Both the position numbers and the translations under genes were made by a program. From NCBI GenBank assembly GCA_023250585.1, contig JAHFAK010000025.1:1-16842 (forward strand): 16,842 nucleotides of DNA, read 5' to 3'. The DNA comes from Deltaproteobacteria bacterium (GTDB taxonomy: Bacteria > Bdellovibrionota_F > JAHFAK01). The notes below the pieces were generated by a model. That model had not been told where the DNA came from and ran no database searches. It worked only from the letters and a program-made list of their open reading frames with translations. Shown one piece after another: positions 3,241-10,287 of the stretch; positions within the stretch are counted from its first letter, which is position 1, and each line of letters opens with the position of its first letter.

Positions 3241-4164
3241 ATGACAGCTGAGATTATGAAAGACATCAAAAAAAAAATTTACGAACATAAAATATATGAC
3301 CGGGTCTTTAGTTTGATAGGCGTGATTCTAACTTTTATGGTACTCATGGTTCTCTTCGTTCTTTTAATTGACCTTATGCGGAATGGAGTTCCCCGGCTAT
3401 CTGTATCGTTTTTTACTTCATATCCATCACGTTTTGCAAATAGAGCAGGTATCCTTTCAGCATGGGTAGGCACAATTTTAGTGATGACGGTTACGGCGAT
3501 TGCAGCTGTACCCATCGGTGTCGCTGCAGGAATTTACCTCGAAGAATATGCGCGGAAAAATTGGATAACCAACTTGATTGAAATAAATATTACTAATCTT
3601 GCGGGCGTGCCCTCCATTATTTATGGTCTTATGGCATTAGGAATTTTTGTATATCAACTTGAACTTGGACAAAGTATTCTCACTGCCGGATTAACGTTGA
3701 GTCTCCTTATCCTTCCTATTGTCATTGTTTCAACCCGCGAAGCATTGAGGACTATTCCAATCGGTATTCGAGAAGCAGCTCAGGCCGCAGGAGCAACGAA
3801 ATGGCAAGTCGTTAAAGATCATTTGGTGCCCTATTCAGCAGGTGGTGTGTTTACGGGAATAATCATCGCGTTATCGCGAGCCATTGGCGAAACTGCGCCT
3901 CTTTTGACGATTGGAGCGCTGACATTTATTGCATTCCTTCCCGACTCTCCGTTTATGGGAGAATTCCCCTATATTTCATTTGATTGGCTTCTTTCTCCCT
4001 TTACAGTCATGCCCATTCAGATGTTTAATTGGGTCTCTCGGCCCCAGATAGATTTTCATAAAAATGCTGCTGCAGCTGGATGTGTACTAATTTTTATGAG
4101 TATAGGCATGAATGCATTGGCAATGTATCTTCGCTACAAATATAGGAAAAAAATTCAATGGTAA
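3241..4164 (+). CDS. pstA: PstA, phosphate ABC transporter permease
   Basis: This is the second Pst channel subunit (307 residues). About six membrane segments are visible: 22-45, 75-99, 118-138, 145-164, 203-231 and 276-297. The coupling loop REAAQAAGATKWQV (177-190) is followed by SRAIGETAPLLTIGAL (212-227), the PstA-type version of the motif, and NITNLAGVPSIIYGLMALG (116-134) is a strong PstA signature. The start is uncertain: ATG at 3241 has no clear ribosome binding site, and an in-frame ATG at 3256 is equally possible; neither choice changes the membrane domain. The gene follows pstC closely, but a repeat-rich gap of 240 bp separates it from pstB, which is unusual for this operon. Confidence 0.94.
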   Translation: MTAEIMKDIKKKIYEHKIYDRVFSLIGVILTFMVLMVLFVLLIDLMRNGVPRLSVSFFTSYPSRFANRAGILSAWVGTILVMTVTAIAAVPIGVAAGIYLEEYARKNWITNLIEINITNLAGVPSIIYGLMALGIFVYQLELGQSILTAGLTLSLLILPIVIVSTREALRTIPIGIREAAQAAGATKWQVVKDHLVPYSAGGVFTGIIIALSRAIGETAPLLTIGALTFIAFLPDSPFMGEFPYISFDWLLSPFTVMPIQMFNWVSRPQIDFHKNAAAAGCVLIFMSIGMNALAMYLRYKYRKKIQW

Positions 4165-4404
4165 CTTTACACAATCCCATAACATCGCATACCTTCGTTG
4201 CTTCCTCGCCTCGTCGTTGCGTCCTACTACGCTCCTACGGAGCTTCGAAGGACAAGTTTTGTTTAAAGTACTTGCTCTCACCAAAGCTTGTCCTGCGTAG
4301 TTCCGAAGGAACGAAGCAGGATCGTTGCGGCGTAACTAAAAGTACGCCTCACTTCTCGACTTCGTCGCGCCTTGGTTTGCTCGTTCTGAGATTGCGTAAA
4401 GACA
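4165..4404 (+). repeat. Repeat-rich spacer inside the pst operon with a long imperfect palindrome
   Basis: This 240-bp gap between pstA and pstB is visibly richer in G and C than its neighbours and holds no credible gene. An imperfect inverted repeat has arms 4222-4261 and 4282-4321 (about 32 of 40 positions pair) around a 20-nt loop. Its core is GGACAAGTTTTG against CAAAGCTTGTCC. A smaller perfect hairpin, GGCGTA/TACGCC, lies at 4329-4348. Reading frames cross the block but look like shadows: Ser/Arg/Leu-rich and without family resemblance. The base composition and structure suggest a dispersed genomic repeat. An mRNA-level role between pstA and pstB, such as transcript stabilisation or partial attenuation, is possible but unsupported beyond position. 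Confidence 0.65.
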
Positions 4405-5178
4405 ATGAGTTATGTTATTATGAATAAAGCAGAAGTAAAAAAATTAAGTTTTTATTATAGTTCTGTGCAAGCCCTTAAAGATATTTCTTTGCCGATCGAA
4501 GAAAAAAAAGTTACGGCGGTAATTGGTCCTTCTGGATGTGGTAAAAGTACGCTTTTACGTTGCTTCAATCGAATGCATGATCTCTATCCTGGAAATCGAT
4601 ATGACGGAGAAATTCTTTTACATCCTGATTCTATTAATCTCGTTGGCGCTCATATTGATCCCATTGAAATTCGAATGAGAATCGGCATGGTATTTCAAAA
4701 ACCAAATCCATTTCCAAAATCAATTTATGAAAATGTCGTCTACGGTCTCAAAGTACGAGGGATAAAAAAGAAAAGATTGATTGATGAGAAATGCGAAAAA
4801 TCCCTTCGTGATGCGGCTTTGTGGGAAGAAGTAAAAGATCGATTACATAAACCTGCATTTAATCTCTCCGGTGGTCAACAACAACGACTTTGCATTGCGC
4901 GAGCTCTTGCAACCGAGCCGGAAATACTTCTTTTTGATGAGCCGACATCAGCGCTTGATCCCATTGCGACGGCTCGTGTTGAGGAATTAATTGAAGAGCT
5001 CAAAGAAAAAGTAACCATTGTTATTGTTACGCATAATATGCAGCAAGCAGCGAGAATCTCTGATTCTACTGCTTTTTTATATATGGGTGAATTAATAGAG
5101 TTCGGAAAAACAAAACAACTTTTTACCAATCCTCGTGAGAAAAAAACAGAGGATTATATCACGGGGAGGTTTGGATAA
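4405..5178 (+). CDS. pstB: PstB, phosphate ABC transporter ATPase
   Basis: This ATPase powers PstCA. All ABC motifs are intact in the 257-residue protein: Walker [10 protein letters not shown] (41-49), Q-loop Q98 within [17 protein letters not shown], signature [16 protein letters not shown] (154-169), Walker [13 protein letters not shown] (174-185) and H-switch H210 in [15 protein letters not shown]. The segment [15 protein letters not shown] and the ending [10 protein letters not shown] are characteristic of PstB. Two starts are possible: ATG 4405, or ATG 4420 ([13 protein letters not shown]), which is closer to the usual N-terminus of the family; neither has a strong ribosome binding site. 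The stop codon overlaps the phoU start by 1 nt (TAATG). Confidence 0.96.
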
Positions 5179-6980: not shown

Positions 6981-7433
6981 ATGAAACAACGAGTTTATAT
7001 TGATACTTCTGTTATTGGTGGTTGTATTGATGATGAATTTTCTGAATGGTCAAATAAATTGTTCCATGAATTTCGTAATGAATTTAAAATTGCTGTTGTG
7101 TCTGATTTGACACTCAAAGAACTTGAAAAGGCGCCGGTGACAGTCCAAGAAGTATTGGCGCAATTATCTAAAAAACATATAGAGTATGTTTTTCTCTCTC
7201 GTGAATCAGAAGATCTTGCAGATAATTATCTTAAAAATAAGATAGTTCCATACAATAGTATTATCGATGCTCAACATATTGCCATAGCATCAGTAGCCAG
7301 AGCCGATGTTCTTGTTAGTTGGAACTTTAAACATGTAGTAAATTTAAATCGAATTAGAGGTTTTAATTCTGTTAATTTAAAATTGAATTATCCTCTTTTG
7401 GAAATTAGAAGTCCGATGGAGGTCTTAATATGA
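6981..7433 (+). CDS. PIN-domain protein, VapC-like putative toxin
   Basis: It is a probable Mg-dependent ribonuclease of the PIN superfamily and a likely toxin of a type II pair. The 150 residues open with VYIDTSVIGG (5-14), where D8 is the first acidic metal ligand. E47 in TLKELEK and D96 in SIIDAQHIAIA are the second and third. At the fourth position the sequence reads LVSWNFKHVVN (111-121), with N115 where many PIN proteins have Asp; this W-N-F form is, from memory, common in one PIN subgroup. A good ribosome binding site (AGAGGTGG, 6967-6974) lies 6 nt before the ATG, and only 15 bp separate it from fbaB. The downstream small gene overlaps it by 4 nt. Toxin activity and RNA target are inferred, not visible. 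Confidence 0.8.
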   Translation: MKQRVYIDTSVIGGCIDDEFSEWSNKLFHEFRNEFKIAVVSDLTLKELEKAPVTVQEVLAQLSKKHIEYVFLSRESEDLADNYLKNKIVPYNSIIDAQHIAIASVARADVLVSWNFKHVVNLNRIRGFNSVNLKLNYPLLEIRSPMEVLI

Positions 7434-7600
7434 AGAAAAAATTTAATGCGGTTGAATATCAACGAAAGATTCGAGAAGAATTAAGTAAACAATATATTAA
7501 AGATAAGGAATTGGTATTGAAAGAACTAAAGAAATATAGTAATTTAAAGACAGTTGAGACTAAAAAACAACGCTCTCATGCTCTGTATGTAAGAAGATAG
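7430..7600 (+). CDS. 56-residue basic protein, putative antitoxin partner of the PIN protein
   Basis: This short gene starts in the ATGA overlap with the PIN gene stop and is preceded by GGAGG (7418-7422) with 7-nt spacing, so it is well supported despite its size. The product begins MKKKFNAVEYQRKIREEL and is rich in Lys, Glu and Arg, with a predicted helical middle (about residues 8-36) and a basic tail ending in ALYVRR. I recognise no DNA-binding fold such as ribbon-helix-helix or AbrB. From memory, small lysine-rich proteins of this style often accompany PIN toxins. The order toxin-then-antitoxin is the reverse of classical vapBC. Antitoxin function is inferred from size, overlap and neighbour. 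Confidence 0.75.
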   Translation: MKKKFNAVEYQRKIREELSKQYIKDKELVLKELKKYSNLKTVETKKQRSHALYVRR

Positions 7601-7610
7601 ATATTTTTCT

Positions 7611-7709
7611 TCCGGCCGCAAAGCCTTTCAAAAGCCTATGAAATAAGGCGTCGAACTCCTCAATGCAATCCAAGAAGTGTATTTAAGTAAAGAAGTCACG
7701 ATTGCGTGA
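7611..7709 (+). pseudogene. Displaced, nonsense-mutated copy of the 3' end of fbaB
   Basis: In the aldolase frame this stretch reads as the last 32 codons plus stop of fbaB. It differs from the intact tail (6867-6965) at 7 of 99 positions: four synonymous third-position changes (Ser, Arg, Ala, Ile codons), two conservative replacements (Ile to Val, Asp to Glu) and one nonsense change, GAA to TAA at 7644-7646. The upstream part of the gene is absent; the similarity begins about 10 nt after the small partner gene. The substitution pattern suggests two aldolase alleles that diverged while coding, after which this copy lost constraint. It is probably either the original tail displaced by an insertion or a remnant of a second fbaB copy. 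Confidence 0.88.
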
Positions 7710-7715
7710 AATTAA

Positions 7716-8026: not shown

Positions 8027-8170
8027 AAGTTAGTGAGATAGTGACTATATTGTCATGAAAATACAATCATACCTTATAGAAAAAATGTATACAAGACACC
8101 TCTACTGGAAATCTTTTTTATTGTGTAGTATGTTTTATCTCCAATTACAATAATCATGCAGGAGAATATT

Positions 8171-9160
8171 ATGACTGAACTAAACATTGAAGCATTAAAT
8201 ACCTACGTTAAAGAGCACAGCACTTTTGTAACGAAGGTTTATGAAGAAGTCGGAAAGATTATTGTCGGTCAGCGATATATGATTGAACGTATGATACTGG
8301 CACTTTTAGCTGATGGACATATCTTGGTTGAAGGAGTTCCGGGGCTTGCAAAGACGACTGCGGTGAAAACACTGGCTCAAACAATTAAAACAGGATTTCA
8401 GCGCATTCAATTTACGCCCGATCTTTTGCCGGCGGATGTAGTTGGTACGCAGATTTATCAGCCGAAAGATGGAAATTTTACCATAAAAAAAGGACCAATT
8501 TTTAGTAATATTATTTTAGCCGATGAAATCAATCGGGCGCCATCGAAAGTTCAGTCAGCGCTGCTTGAAGCTATGCAAGAGCGGCAGGTAACGATTGGCG
8601 AAAATACATTCAAACTTGATAATCCTTTTTTAGTTATGGCAACGCAAAATCCCATTGAACAAGAAGGAACCTATCCATTGCCTGAAGCACAAACTGATCG
8701 TTTTATGTTCAAACTCAAAGTTACGTATCCAACAAAAGAAGAAGAAAAAAATATTATGAAACGCATGAGCCGTTTAGAACAAATGGATGTGAATGCAGTA
8801 ATAGCGCCGGAAGCTATTATCAAAGCTCGTACGATAGTTGATAGTATTTATATTGATGAAAAACTTCATGATTATATTCTCAATATTGTTTTTGCCACAC
8901 GAAATCCAAAGGATTTTGGTTTAGGTATAAGTCACTACATTCAATATGGAGCGTCGCCACGTGCTTCAATTTATCTTGCAAAAGCAGCACGTGCCTTGGC
9001 ATTTTTAAATGGCCGCGGCTATGTGACTCCTCAAGATATTAAAACCATTGGTCACGATATTTTACGCCATCGGGTGCTTTTGTCCTATGAAGCAGAGGCA
9101 GAGGATATAACCAGTGATGATGTTATTACACAAATTTTTGATAAAATTGAAGTACCGTAG
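8171..9160 (+). CDS. MoxR-family AAA+ ATPase
   Basis: MoxR ATPases are thought to act as chaperones that assemble or activate the von Willebrand A (VWA) proteins encoded beside them. The chosen start (ATG 8171) has AGGAG at 8160-8164, 6 nt upstream; an in-frame ATG at 8156 would place that site inside the gene, so I reject it. The 329-residue product has Walker A GVPGLAKT (55-62), the MoxR insert FTPDLLPADVVGTQIY (81-96), Walker B ILADEINRAP (115-124), sensor 1 ATQNPIEQEGTYPLPEAQTDRF region (157-178) and a lid domain. It heads the DUF58-bat gene cluster, the standard arrangement. A 187-bp gap with two hairpins separates it from the next gene. Confidence 0.94.
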   Translation: MTELNIEALNTYVKEHSTFVTKVYEEVGKIIVGQRYMIERMILALLADGHILVEGVPGLAKTTAVKTLAQTIKTGFQRIQFTPDLLPADVVGTQIYQPKDGNFTIKKGPIFSNIILADEINRAPSKVQSALLEAMQERQVTIGENTFKLDNPFLVMATQNPIEQEGTYPLPEAQTDRFMFKLKVTYPTKEEEKNIMKRMSRLEQMDVNAVIAPEAIIKARTIVDSIYIDEKLHDYILNIVFATRNPKDFGLGISHYIQYGASPRASIYLAKAARALAFLNGRGYVTPQDIKTIGHDILRHRVLLSYEAEAEDITSDDVITQIFDKIEVP

Positions 9161-9164
9161 AAAT

Positions 9165-9197
9165 GTTACACGTTTCTTCGAGGAAGCGTAGAGTAAC
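9165..9197 (+). repeat. Stem-loop just after moxR
   Basis: GTTAC (9165-9169) pairs with GTAAC (9193-9197), and ACGTTTC pairs with GAAGCGT (one G-T pair) around a TTCGAG loop, giving about a 12-bp stem with a small bulge. It begins 4 nt after the moxR stop. No T-run follows, so readthrough into the DUF58 gene is expected; a role as a partial terminator or mRNA 3' protector is possible. Confidence 0.5.
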
Positions 9198-9339
9198 AGT
9201 TCAGTAAATGGGTGAGTAAGTTCCCAAAAAGTATTCCTATCGACGTCGCTTCCATAATACTATTAAGAATGGGGTAAGCGCGCTCGATAGAAATACTTTT
9301 TGGGAACTTACTCACCCATTTACTGTGTATTACGACATA
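9193..9339 (+). repeat. Short intergenic motif, copy split by the 124-bp inverted repeat
   Basis: GTAACAGTTCAG (9193-9204) and ACGACATA (9332-9339) flank the inverted repeat. If 9205-9322 is taken out, the remaining 31 nt align without gaps to the pstS-pstC copy (about 25 of 31 positions), which suggests the inverted repeat was inserted into this motif. Confidence 0.4.
9202..9325. repeat. 124-bp near-perfect inverted repeat, candidate miniature inverted-repeat element
   Basis: Left arm 9202-9243 and right arm 9284-9325 are reverse complements over 42 bp with one mismatch (C9236 opposite A9291 region). The 40-nt centre continues the symmetry in part: CGCTT/AAGCG (9247-9251 and 9276-9280) and CCAT/ATGG (9252-9255 and 9269-9272). 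There is no coding content. If the ends are taken as AATGGG...CCCATT, the element is flanked by TA on both sides, as a TA target duplication of the IS630/Tc1-mariner type would leave; this is suggestive only, since TA also fits the symmetry. As RNA it would form an extremely stable hairpin between moxR and the DUF58 gene. Confidence 0.85.
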
Positions 9340-9347
9340 GGTACATT

Positions 9348-10235
9348 ATGCTTTCAAAAGAATTACTTAAAAAAATAAAACTTATTCAGCTCCATACAGA
9401 ACGACTGACAAATGCTGTTCTTGCTGGTGAGTATGAATCGGTATTCAAAGGACGCGGGATAGAATTTGATGAAGTTCGTGAATATATTCCCGGTGATATG
9501 GTTCGCTCGATTGATTGGAATGTTACGGCTCGGATGGGGCATCCTTTTGTAAAAATTTATAAAGAAGAACGAGAATTAACGATTATGCTGCTTGTTGATC
9601 TTTCGTATTCAGGACGATTTGGATCACAAGAAAAATTAAAAAATGAAGTTGCTGCTGAGCTTGCCGCCTTTTTTGCGTATCTTGCTATTAAAAACAACGA
9701 TAAAGTAGGCGCGATTCTTTTCACCGATCGAGTAGAAAAGTATATACCGCCAAAAAAAGGCAAGGCCCATATTTTTCAGGTAATTAAGGAAATTTTAAGT
9801 TTTACTCCACAGCATAAAAGAACACATATTCCCTCGGCACTTGAATATCTTTTGCATGTGGTGAAGAAAAAAAGTATTGCCTTTTTGATTTCTGATTTCC
9901 AAGATAAAAATTATGATCGCTTACTGCGACTTGCCTCAAAAAGACATGACCTCATTGCTGTTACTATTGAAGATCAACGTGAGATTGCGATGCCAAAGAT
10001 TGGTTTAGTCGAACTTTTTGATGGAGAACGTGAAGACTCAATTGTCATTGATACGCATGACCCGCGATTTCAGAAGATGTTGCAGGAAAAAGCATACGAG
10101 AGAAAAAGAATATTTAAAGAACTGCTTCGACAAACGAAAGTAGATGGTATTACAATTCAAACTCACGGAAATTATGTGGAACCGGTTATAGAATTTTTTA
10201 GAAAACGGGAAAGCCGTGCGTACCAGCTCAGTTAA
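9348..10235 (+). CDS. DUF58-family VWA-like protein of the MoxR/Bat cluster
   Basis: This is a cytosolic DUF58 protein, a regular companion of MoxR ATPases. The 295 residues include the family signature GRGIEFDEVREYIPGD (35-50) followed by SIDWNVTAR (54-62). A VWA-like core follows with a metal-site motif D84-L-S86-Y-S88 in MLLVDLSYSGRFGS. The start at ATG 9348 gives the usual N-terminus (LLKKIKLIQLHTERLTNAVLAGEYES); a longer reading from a TTG at 9300 would begin inside the inverted repeat and adds 16 unrelated residues, so it is rejected. The ribosome binding site is weak (ATAGGT). Function is probably assembly or regulation of membrane VWA complexes; no specific substrate can be read from the sequence. 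Confidence 0.92.
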   Translation: MLSKELLKKIKLIQLHTERLTNAVLAGEYESVFKGRGIEFDEVREYIPGDMVRSIDWNVTARMGHPFVKIYKEERELTIMLLVDLSYSGRFGSQEKLKNEVAAELAAFFAYLAIKNNDKVGAILFTDRVEKYIPPKKGKAHIFQVIKEILSFTPQHKRTHIPSALEYLLHVVKKKSIAFLISDFQDKNYDRLLRLASKRHDLIAVTIEDQREIAMPKIGLVELFDGEREDSIVIDTHDPRFQKMLQEKAYERKRIFKELLRQTKVDGITIQTHGNYVEPVIEFFRKRESRAYQLS

Positions 10236-10287
10236 TCGGTGGAGTTAGGGAGTACAGCCGTACCAGTATTTAACTATGAACGACATA
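10220..10287 (+). repeat. Short intergenic motif, copy with a longer spacer (DUF58 end to DUF4381 start)
   Basis: GTACCAGCTCAG (10220-10231) spans the end of the DUF58 gene, and ACGACATA (10280-10287) lies just inside the next gene. The 48-nt spacer includes a second GTACCAG (10260-10266). The left word overlaps coding sequence, so it is less certain that this copy is the same element. Confidence 0.3.

Follow-up and report, generated by a model that had tools for sequence, protein, structure and literature searches.

The palindrome and its surroundings

What is a long, almost perfect palindrome doing between moxR and a DUF58 gene, and how have its two arms stayed alike? In the window, as we call the whole stretch of 16,842 nucleotides analyzed here, positions 9202–9325 form an inverted repeat whose arms (9202–9243 and 9284–9325, both read on the forward strand) pair at 41 of 42 positions. 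Folded as a single strand, these 124 bases reach −76.8 kcal/mol, as against −22.9 ± 3.0 for shuffled sequences (z = −18.2; 0 of 200 shuffles as low). The repeat is real and lies far beyond chance. It occupies the gap between moxR (8156–9160) and the DUF58 gene, which starts at 9348, and is non-coding. The original prediction had described a near-perfect, non-coding inverted repeat with 42-bp arms and one mismatch in this very gap, and was right on these points. The extent that it gave, 9202–9325, is that of the palindrome itself, but the real unit is larger and runs from 9193 to 9333 (141 bp), with the ends GTAAC... and ...ATTAC common to other copies in the same genome.

The left terminal repeat of this unit (9193–9220, forward strand, GTAACAGTTCAGTAAATGGGTGAGTAAG) is of the type that we call B and belongs to the end-motif matches found across the genome. 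In the right one (9306–9333, reverse strand) the inner part is the same as the left type-B end, and the tip GTAATACA alone differs. The centre of the palindrome, previously read as partly symmetric, is a conserved 46-bp core (9241–9286, forward strand) with a short inner stem and a loop, its symmetry being interrupted by a 3-nt mismatch bubble (CGT/GCG). The flanks of the element, AGCGTAGA and GACATAGG, agree at 4 of 8 positions and thus form no clear target duplication. Two related sequences lie elsewhere in the window. One is a derivative of 71 bp (2262–2332) that bears the same ends; it is located at the end of pstS and enclosed by a perfect 9-bp duplication, AAATTTGAC (2253–2341 with both repeats). 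The other is a 36-bp remnant on the forward strand (10220–10255; 10212–10263 with its flanks AGCCGTGC and AGCCGTAC, which agree at 7 of 8 positions) that provides the final codons and the stop of the DUF58 gene.

A family of at least 78 copies in two classes

A DNA search found the element in dozens of places in its own genome (G000; 2.24 Mb, 164 contigs). A covariance model built on 28 copies gave 137 strand-wise matches there; since such a model favours pairing heavily, the matches were inspected by eye before counting. They have in common the core CGACGTCGCTTCCATAATA.TATTAAGAAC...AAGCGCG.TCG with few changes, and rerunning the model on the stretches around copies yielded at least 78 distinct core copies. 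The genome-wide search for further copies that had been suggested for this locus therefore shows that it is not single-copy. The copies occupy all kinds of intergenic gap, many of them in short spacers near genes.

Outside this genome the core is nearly absent. Among 40 other genomes, one (G009) had a weak partial match and the remaining 39 had none; the pattern did not occur in the genome contigs, the plasmids held no match, and the viral contigs held a single 17-base match (L141) without the surrounding hairpin. The phylum is represented in the genome set by two genomes, this one and G001, in which the covariance model had no match, and no empty site could be shown in a close relative within this pair. 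G001 does have three places with related ends of the form GTAACC.TCAGTAAATGGGGGATTTCA (L122, L124 and L132), the last of which resembles a short element bearing both ends. Ends of the G001 type turned up in the genome contigs only under Deltaproteobacteria bacterium RIFOXYA12_FULL_61_11, the contigs of which match G001, and at two places in Yersinia, both lacking a GTAAC-like tip.

About half of the copies, ~43, form class I, to which the window element belongs. In these the hairpin lies inside a ~157-bp MITE with ends GTAAYnnCTCAGTTA, usually 156–161 bp long (140–165 bp across the family), which carries no transposase gene. The ends are of two types, A and B, and most copies have one of each. 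The end motif matched 119 times in the genome (54 + 65), versus once (0 + 1) for a reversed control pattern. We curated elements with no more than three mismatches in their ends and counted as a duplication a flank match of at least 7/8 or 8/9. Target duplications of 8–9 bp so defined flank 28 of 37 core-bearing elements, as compared with 0.2% of swapped flank pairs. Class I is thus short, transposase-free and multicopy, has terminal inverted repeats related to those of known insertion sequences (ISDge4 and elements of genome G047, described below), and makes the target duplication typical of them, not clear in the window copy. The co-resident parent that is usual for MITEs, if not part of their definition, was not found in the assembly. 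In short, class I is a MITE whose ends are of the IS66 type and whose cargo is a self-matching hairpin; a second class, of bare hairpins, is related to it.

The same ends also enclose a second family with an unrelated palindromic interior (GGATCCCGCGGTCAAGCCGCGGGATGACA... / GGATCCCGCGGTCAAGCC...) and full copies of 156–158 bp (L101, L108, L110, L114, L117 and L119; also L109, L118, L112 and L116). Target duplications were found for 5 of 8 elements of this second family and for 2 of 5 other curated elements. There are, in addition, remnants of 35–36 bp that retain the type-B end and terminate in GTAC, with flanking duplications of 8/8 at L102 and 7/8 at L088 and at the window remnant (L001). 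They probably arose by deletion between the short repeats GGGAGTA and GGGATTAC.

Class II comprises 35 copies (L062, L065–L074 and L076–L099) that consist of the hairpin alone. Compared with both class I end types, their flanks scored like shuffled sequence, with no remnants of terminal repeats; a longest-common-stretch test found no direct repeat above permuted pairs, and no shared flank motif stood clearly above shuffled controls. These copies thus have neither the terminal repeats of class I nor the target duplication expected of a MITE. An earlier duplication test had given a weak 8–10-bp signal in this class, which the longest-common-stretch test did not uphold. By description, class II resembles the small mobile repeats (SMR-A) of Haloquadratum walsbyi, both being ~110 bp long and present in dozens of copies, with prominent inverted repeats but no target duplication. 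SMR-A sequences are defined by ends unrelated to known transposons; they target the palindromes of IS605-type elements and also occur inside other mobile elements (PMC3119063).

Coupled arms and a conserved core

Most long perfect palindromes disappear or degenerate, whereas here dozens stay matched while drifting within one genome. Without gaps, and with classes set by motif so that the window copy is placed in class II, the two arms of a copy differ by 1.8% in class I and 1.5% in class II, as against 30% and 45% between copies. With gaps and hand-set classes, the within-copy difference is 1.9% in class I and 1.2% in class II; the closest other copy is 7.4% and 17.9% away, and all pairs of copies together give 20% and 28%. 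In all 30 class II copies measured, and in 31 of 39 of class I, the arms are nearer to each other than to any other copy; the reverse holds in 3 of the 39. Since independent drift from a common palindrome predicts a within-copy difference at least equal to that between copies, and the observed one is far below it, the arms are coupled. The original prediction had taken the palindrome as rare and probably recent; it is instead one of dozens whose arms were kept matched during sequence divergence.

Changes on both sides of a pair are also directly visible. In an alignment of 28 class I copies (A1), 12 pairs had changed on both sides (67 cells), the covariation score being 0.200 versus 0.067 ± 0.008; the switches are from U-A to A-U and from C-G to A-U, with very few G-U cells. 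Outside the bubble, 39 of 2512 pairs are mismatched, among them 9 G.T and 12 A.C. The core, for its part, is found in both orientations relative to the ends: once cores had been oriented, those lying one way and the other between A and B ends numbered 17:19, and an identical 100-base core sits one way round in L042 and the other way round in L043. In a few copies, copying, which went in both directions, has turned the 3-nt bubble into fully paired sequence.

Core and arms differ sharply in conservation. Over 27 nt of the core, ungapped identity is 95% and 94% within classes I and II and 93% between them, whereas the values for a 27-nt arm stretch are 75%, 61% and 36%. It is thus the core that is conserved, the arms being replaceable. 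This contrast is the least explained of our results, and it is the basis for considering that the 46-bp core might itself be the mobile unit, an idea that we hold only tentatively and regard as rather unlikely. An enzyme would recognise the loop and the bubble, and each move would renew the second arm as a copy of the first, with perfect pairing as the outcome whatever the arm sequence. Class II would then be the core unit alone, whereas in class I that unit would sit inside an IS66-type MITE. The family also raises the question of how 35 bare hairpins, which share their core with class I but not their arms, arrived without target duplications.

Mobilization and competing explanations

The original prediction had also proposed a miniature element mobilised in trans, and this is supported by the copy number, the common terminal inverted repeats and the target duplications. 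The transposase family that it named fared otherwise. GTAA tips and 8-bp repeats are typical of IS66 elements (PMC11946415), and ISDge4, of the ISBst12 group, has the ends GTGACTACTCAGCA and GTAACTGCTCAGCA with an 8-bp repeat (PMC12898284), its published end being nearly the same as that of class I. In genome G047, three IS66 transposase loci (L149, L168 and L159, the last with one end mismatched) correspond to 1493-bp elements with GTAAC(T/C)ATTCAGGGGG ends and 8/8 duplications, and at another such locus, L160 in G119, GTAAAGATTCAG ends are flanked by an 8/8 duplication. The remaining IS66 transposase loci scanned in other genomes, many of them partial genes at contig ends, had no such end pair with duplication. 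The window family thus resembles these single-ORF IS66 elements in having ends of the GTAAC..(C/T)TCAG type and target duplications of 8 bp; unlike them, it is 140–165 bp long, transposase-free and carries a palindrome. On these grounds the parent, and the transposase acting here, would belong to the ISBst12 group of the IS66 family, for which both the GTAA tips and the 8-bp duplications speak. The assembly itself has no match to the IS66 DDE domain (PF03050) or to TnpB_IS66 (PF05717); the mobilising enzyme is therefore absent, lost or unassembled. No IS1595 transposases were found in this genome either. Bacterial MITEs such as MITECca01 of Cardinium, which has 169 copies and derives from IS982 (PMC9769881), are likewise short, transposase-free, dispersed mostly in intergenic regions and bounded by the ends of a known insertion sequence. 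The window family is distinguished from them by its IS66-type ends, its long self-matching palindromic cargo and a parent that was not found in its own assembly.

We consider it likely that the window palindrome is a copy of an IS66-type (ISBst12 group) MITE with palindromic cargo, the arms of which are kept matched by template switching. An IS66-type transposase acting in trans would insert the MITE, together with its cargo, the hairpin with the conserved core, and duplicate 8, sometimes 9, bp of the target. After insertion, replication may switch between the arms. Such switching would transfer a change from the arm in which it arose to its partner, or else remove it, and would thereby keep the drifting arms matched; it would also flip the core relative to the ends and, in the window copy, would have made the match reach into the terminal repeats. 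The 35–36-bp remnants may stem from slippage across the hairpin. Template-switch mutations at hairpins are predicted to generate multi-base compensatory changes and loop inversions (PMC8794818), and both patterns are present in the window family, although that study dealt with RNA genes across species and we deal with a repeat family within one genome. How often template switching, inversion and slippage occur relative to one another could be counted from the sequences of this family. Some of the patterns could also come from recombination between copies, or from selection that favours paired arms in the DNA itself.

Selection on a transcript, the hairpin being a terminator, a processing site or a small RNA, would account for the very stable fold, the strong covariation and the many copies in short spacers near genes. 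A regulatory RNA hairpin, which had been offered as an alternative for this locus, is nonetheless very improbable as the general function. According to rough, script-made ORF calls, orientation in tandem gaps is even (9:8 in class I and 10:9 in class II) and 21 copies from both classes lie in divergent gaps. RNA selection should tolerate G.U but not A.C, and G.T mismatches are in no excess over A.C ones (9 versus 12). There was no Rfam family match at the gathering score. Copying of arms at the DNA level fits better than RNA selection because G.T and A.C are similarly frequent, the core has both orientations relative to the ends and all gap types are occupied. The IS630/Tc1-mariner element first suspected, with TA on both flanks, would also be short, palindromic, transposase-free and dispersed, but it is almost certainly the wrong family: TA flanks are unsupported because this family duplicates 8–9 bp of its target, and the GTAA-type ends match IS66 elements.

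We judge it improbable that the hairpin was moved as single-stranded DNA by a Y1 (IS200/REP-type) transposase and that class I acquired its IS66-type ends secondarily. That chemistry predicts what is seen in class II, which has neither target duplications nor terminal-repeat remnants; the conserved part is the core with its bubble, and the genome has four Y1_Tnp matches, three of them above the cut-off. However, no core or hairpin of the window family lies near these four genes, a conserved flanking motif was not found and the class I duplications would be left unexplained. REP/REPIN sequences, which go with TnpA-REP (PMC8266576, PMC3116915), are also dispersed palindromes, and Y1 transposases occur in this genome as well; the window family differs from them in being a single ~115-bp hairpin with a conserved core, copies of which were not found beside the Y1 genes at any of the four loci. 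A fold-back artefact of assembly has a negligible probability. The assembly is a draft in 164 contigs, some of which end at or near copies, but a fold-back would duplicate local flanking DNA, and the at least 78 copies are spread over many contigs with differing arms and a common core, those of class I having ends and target duplications too.

Two other segments of the window drew our attention. By eye, 6981–7710 may hold a toxin-antitoxin pair following a class I aldolase gene, and ~95 bp past it again resemble the aldolase 3′ end, as in an inserted module; a 150-aa ORF in this segment had no Pfam match. Between pstA and pstB (4158–4427), an 89-aa ORF of odd composition may be another repeat.
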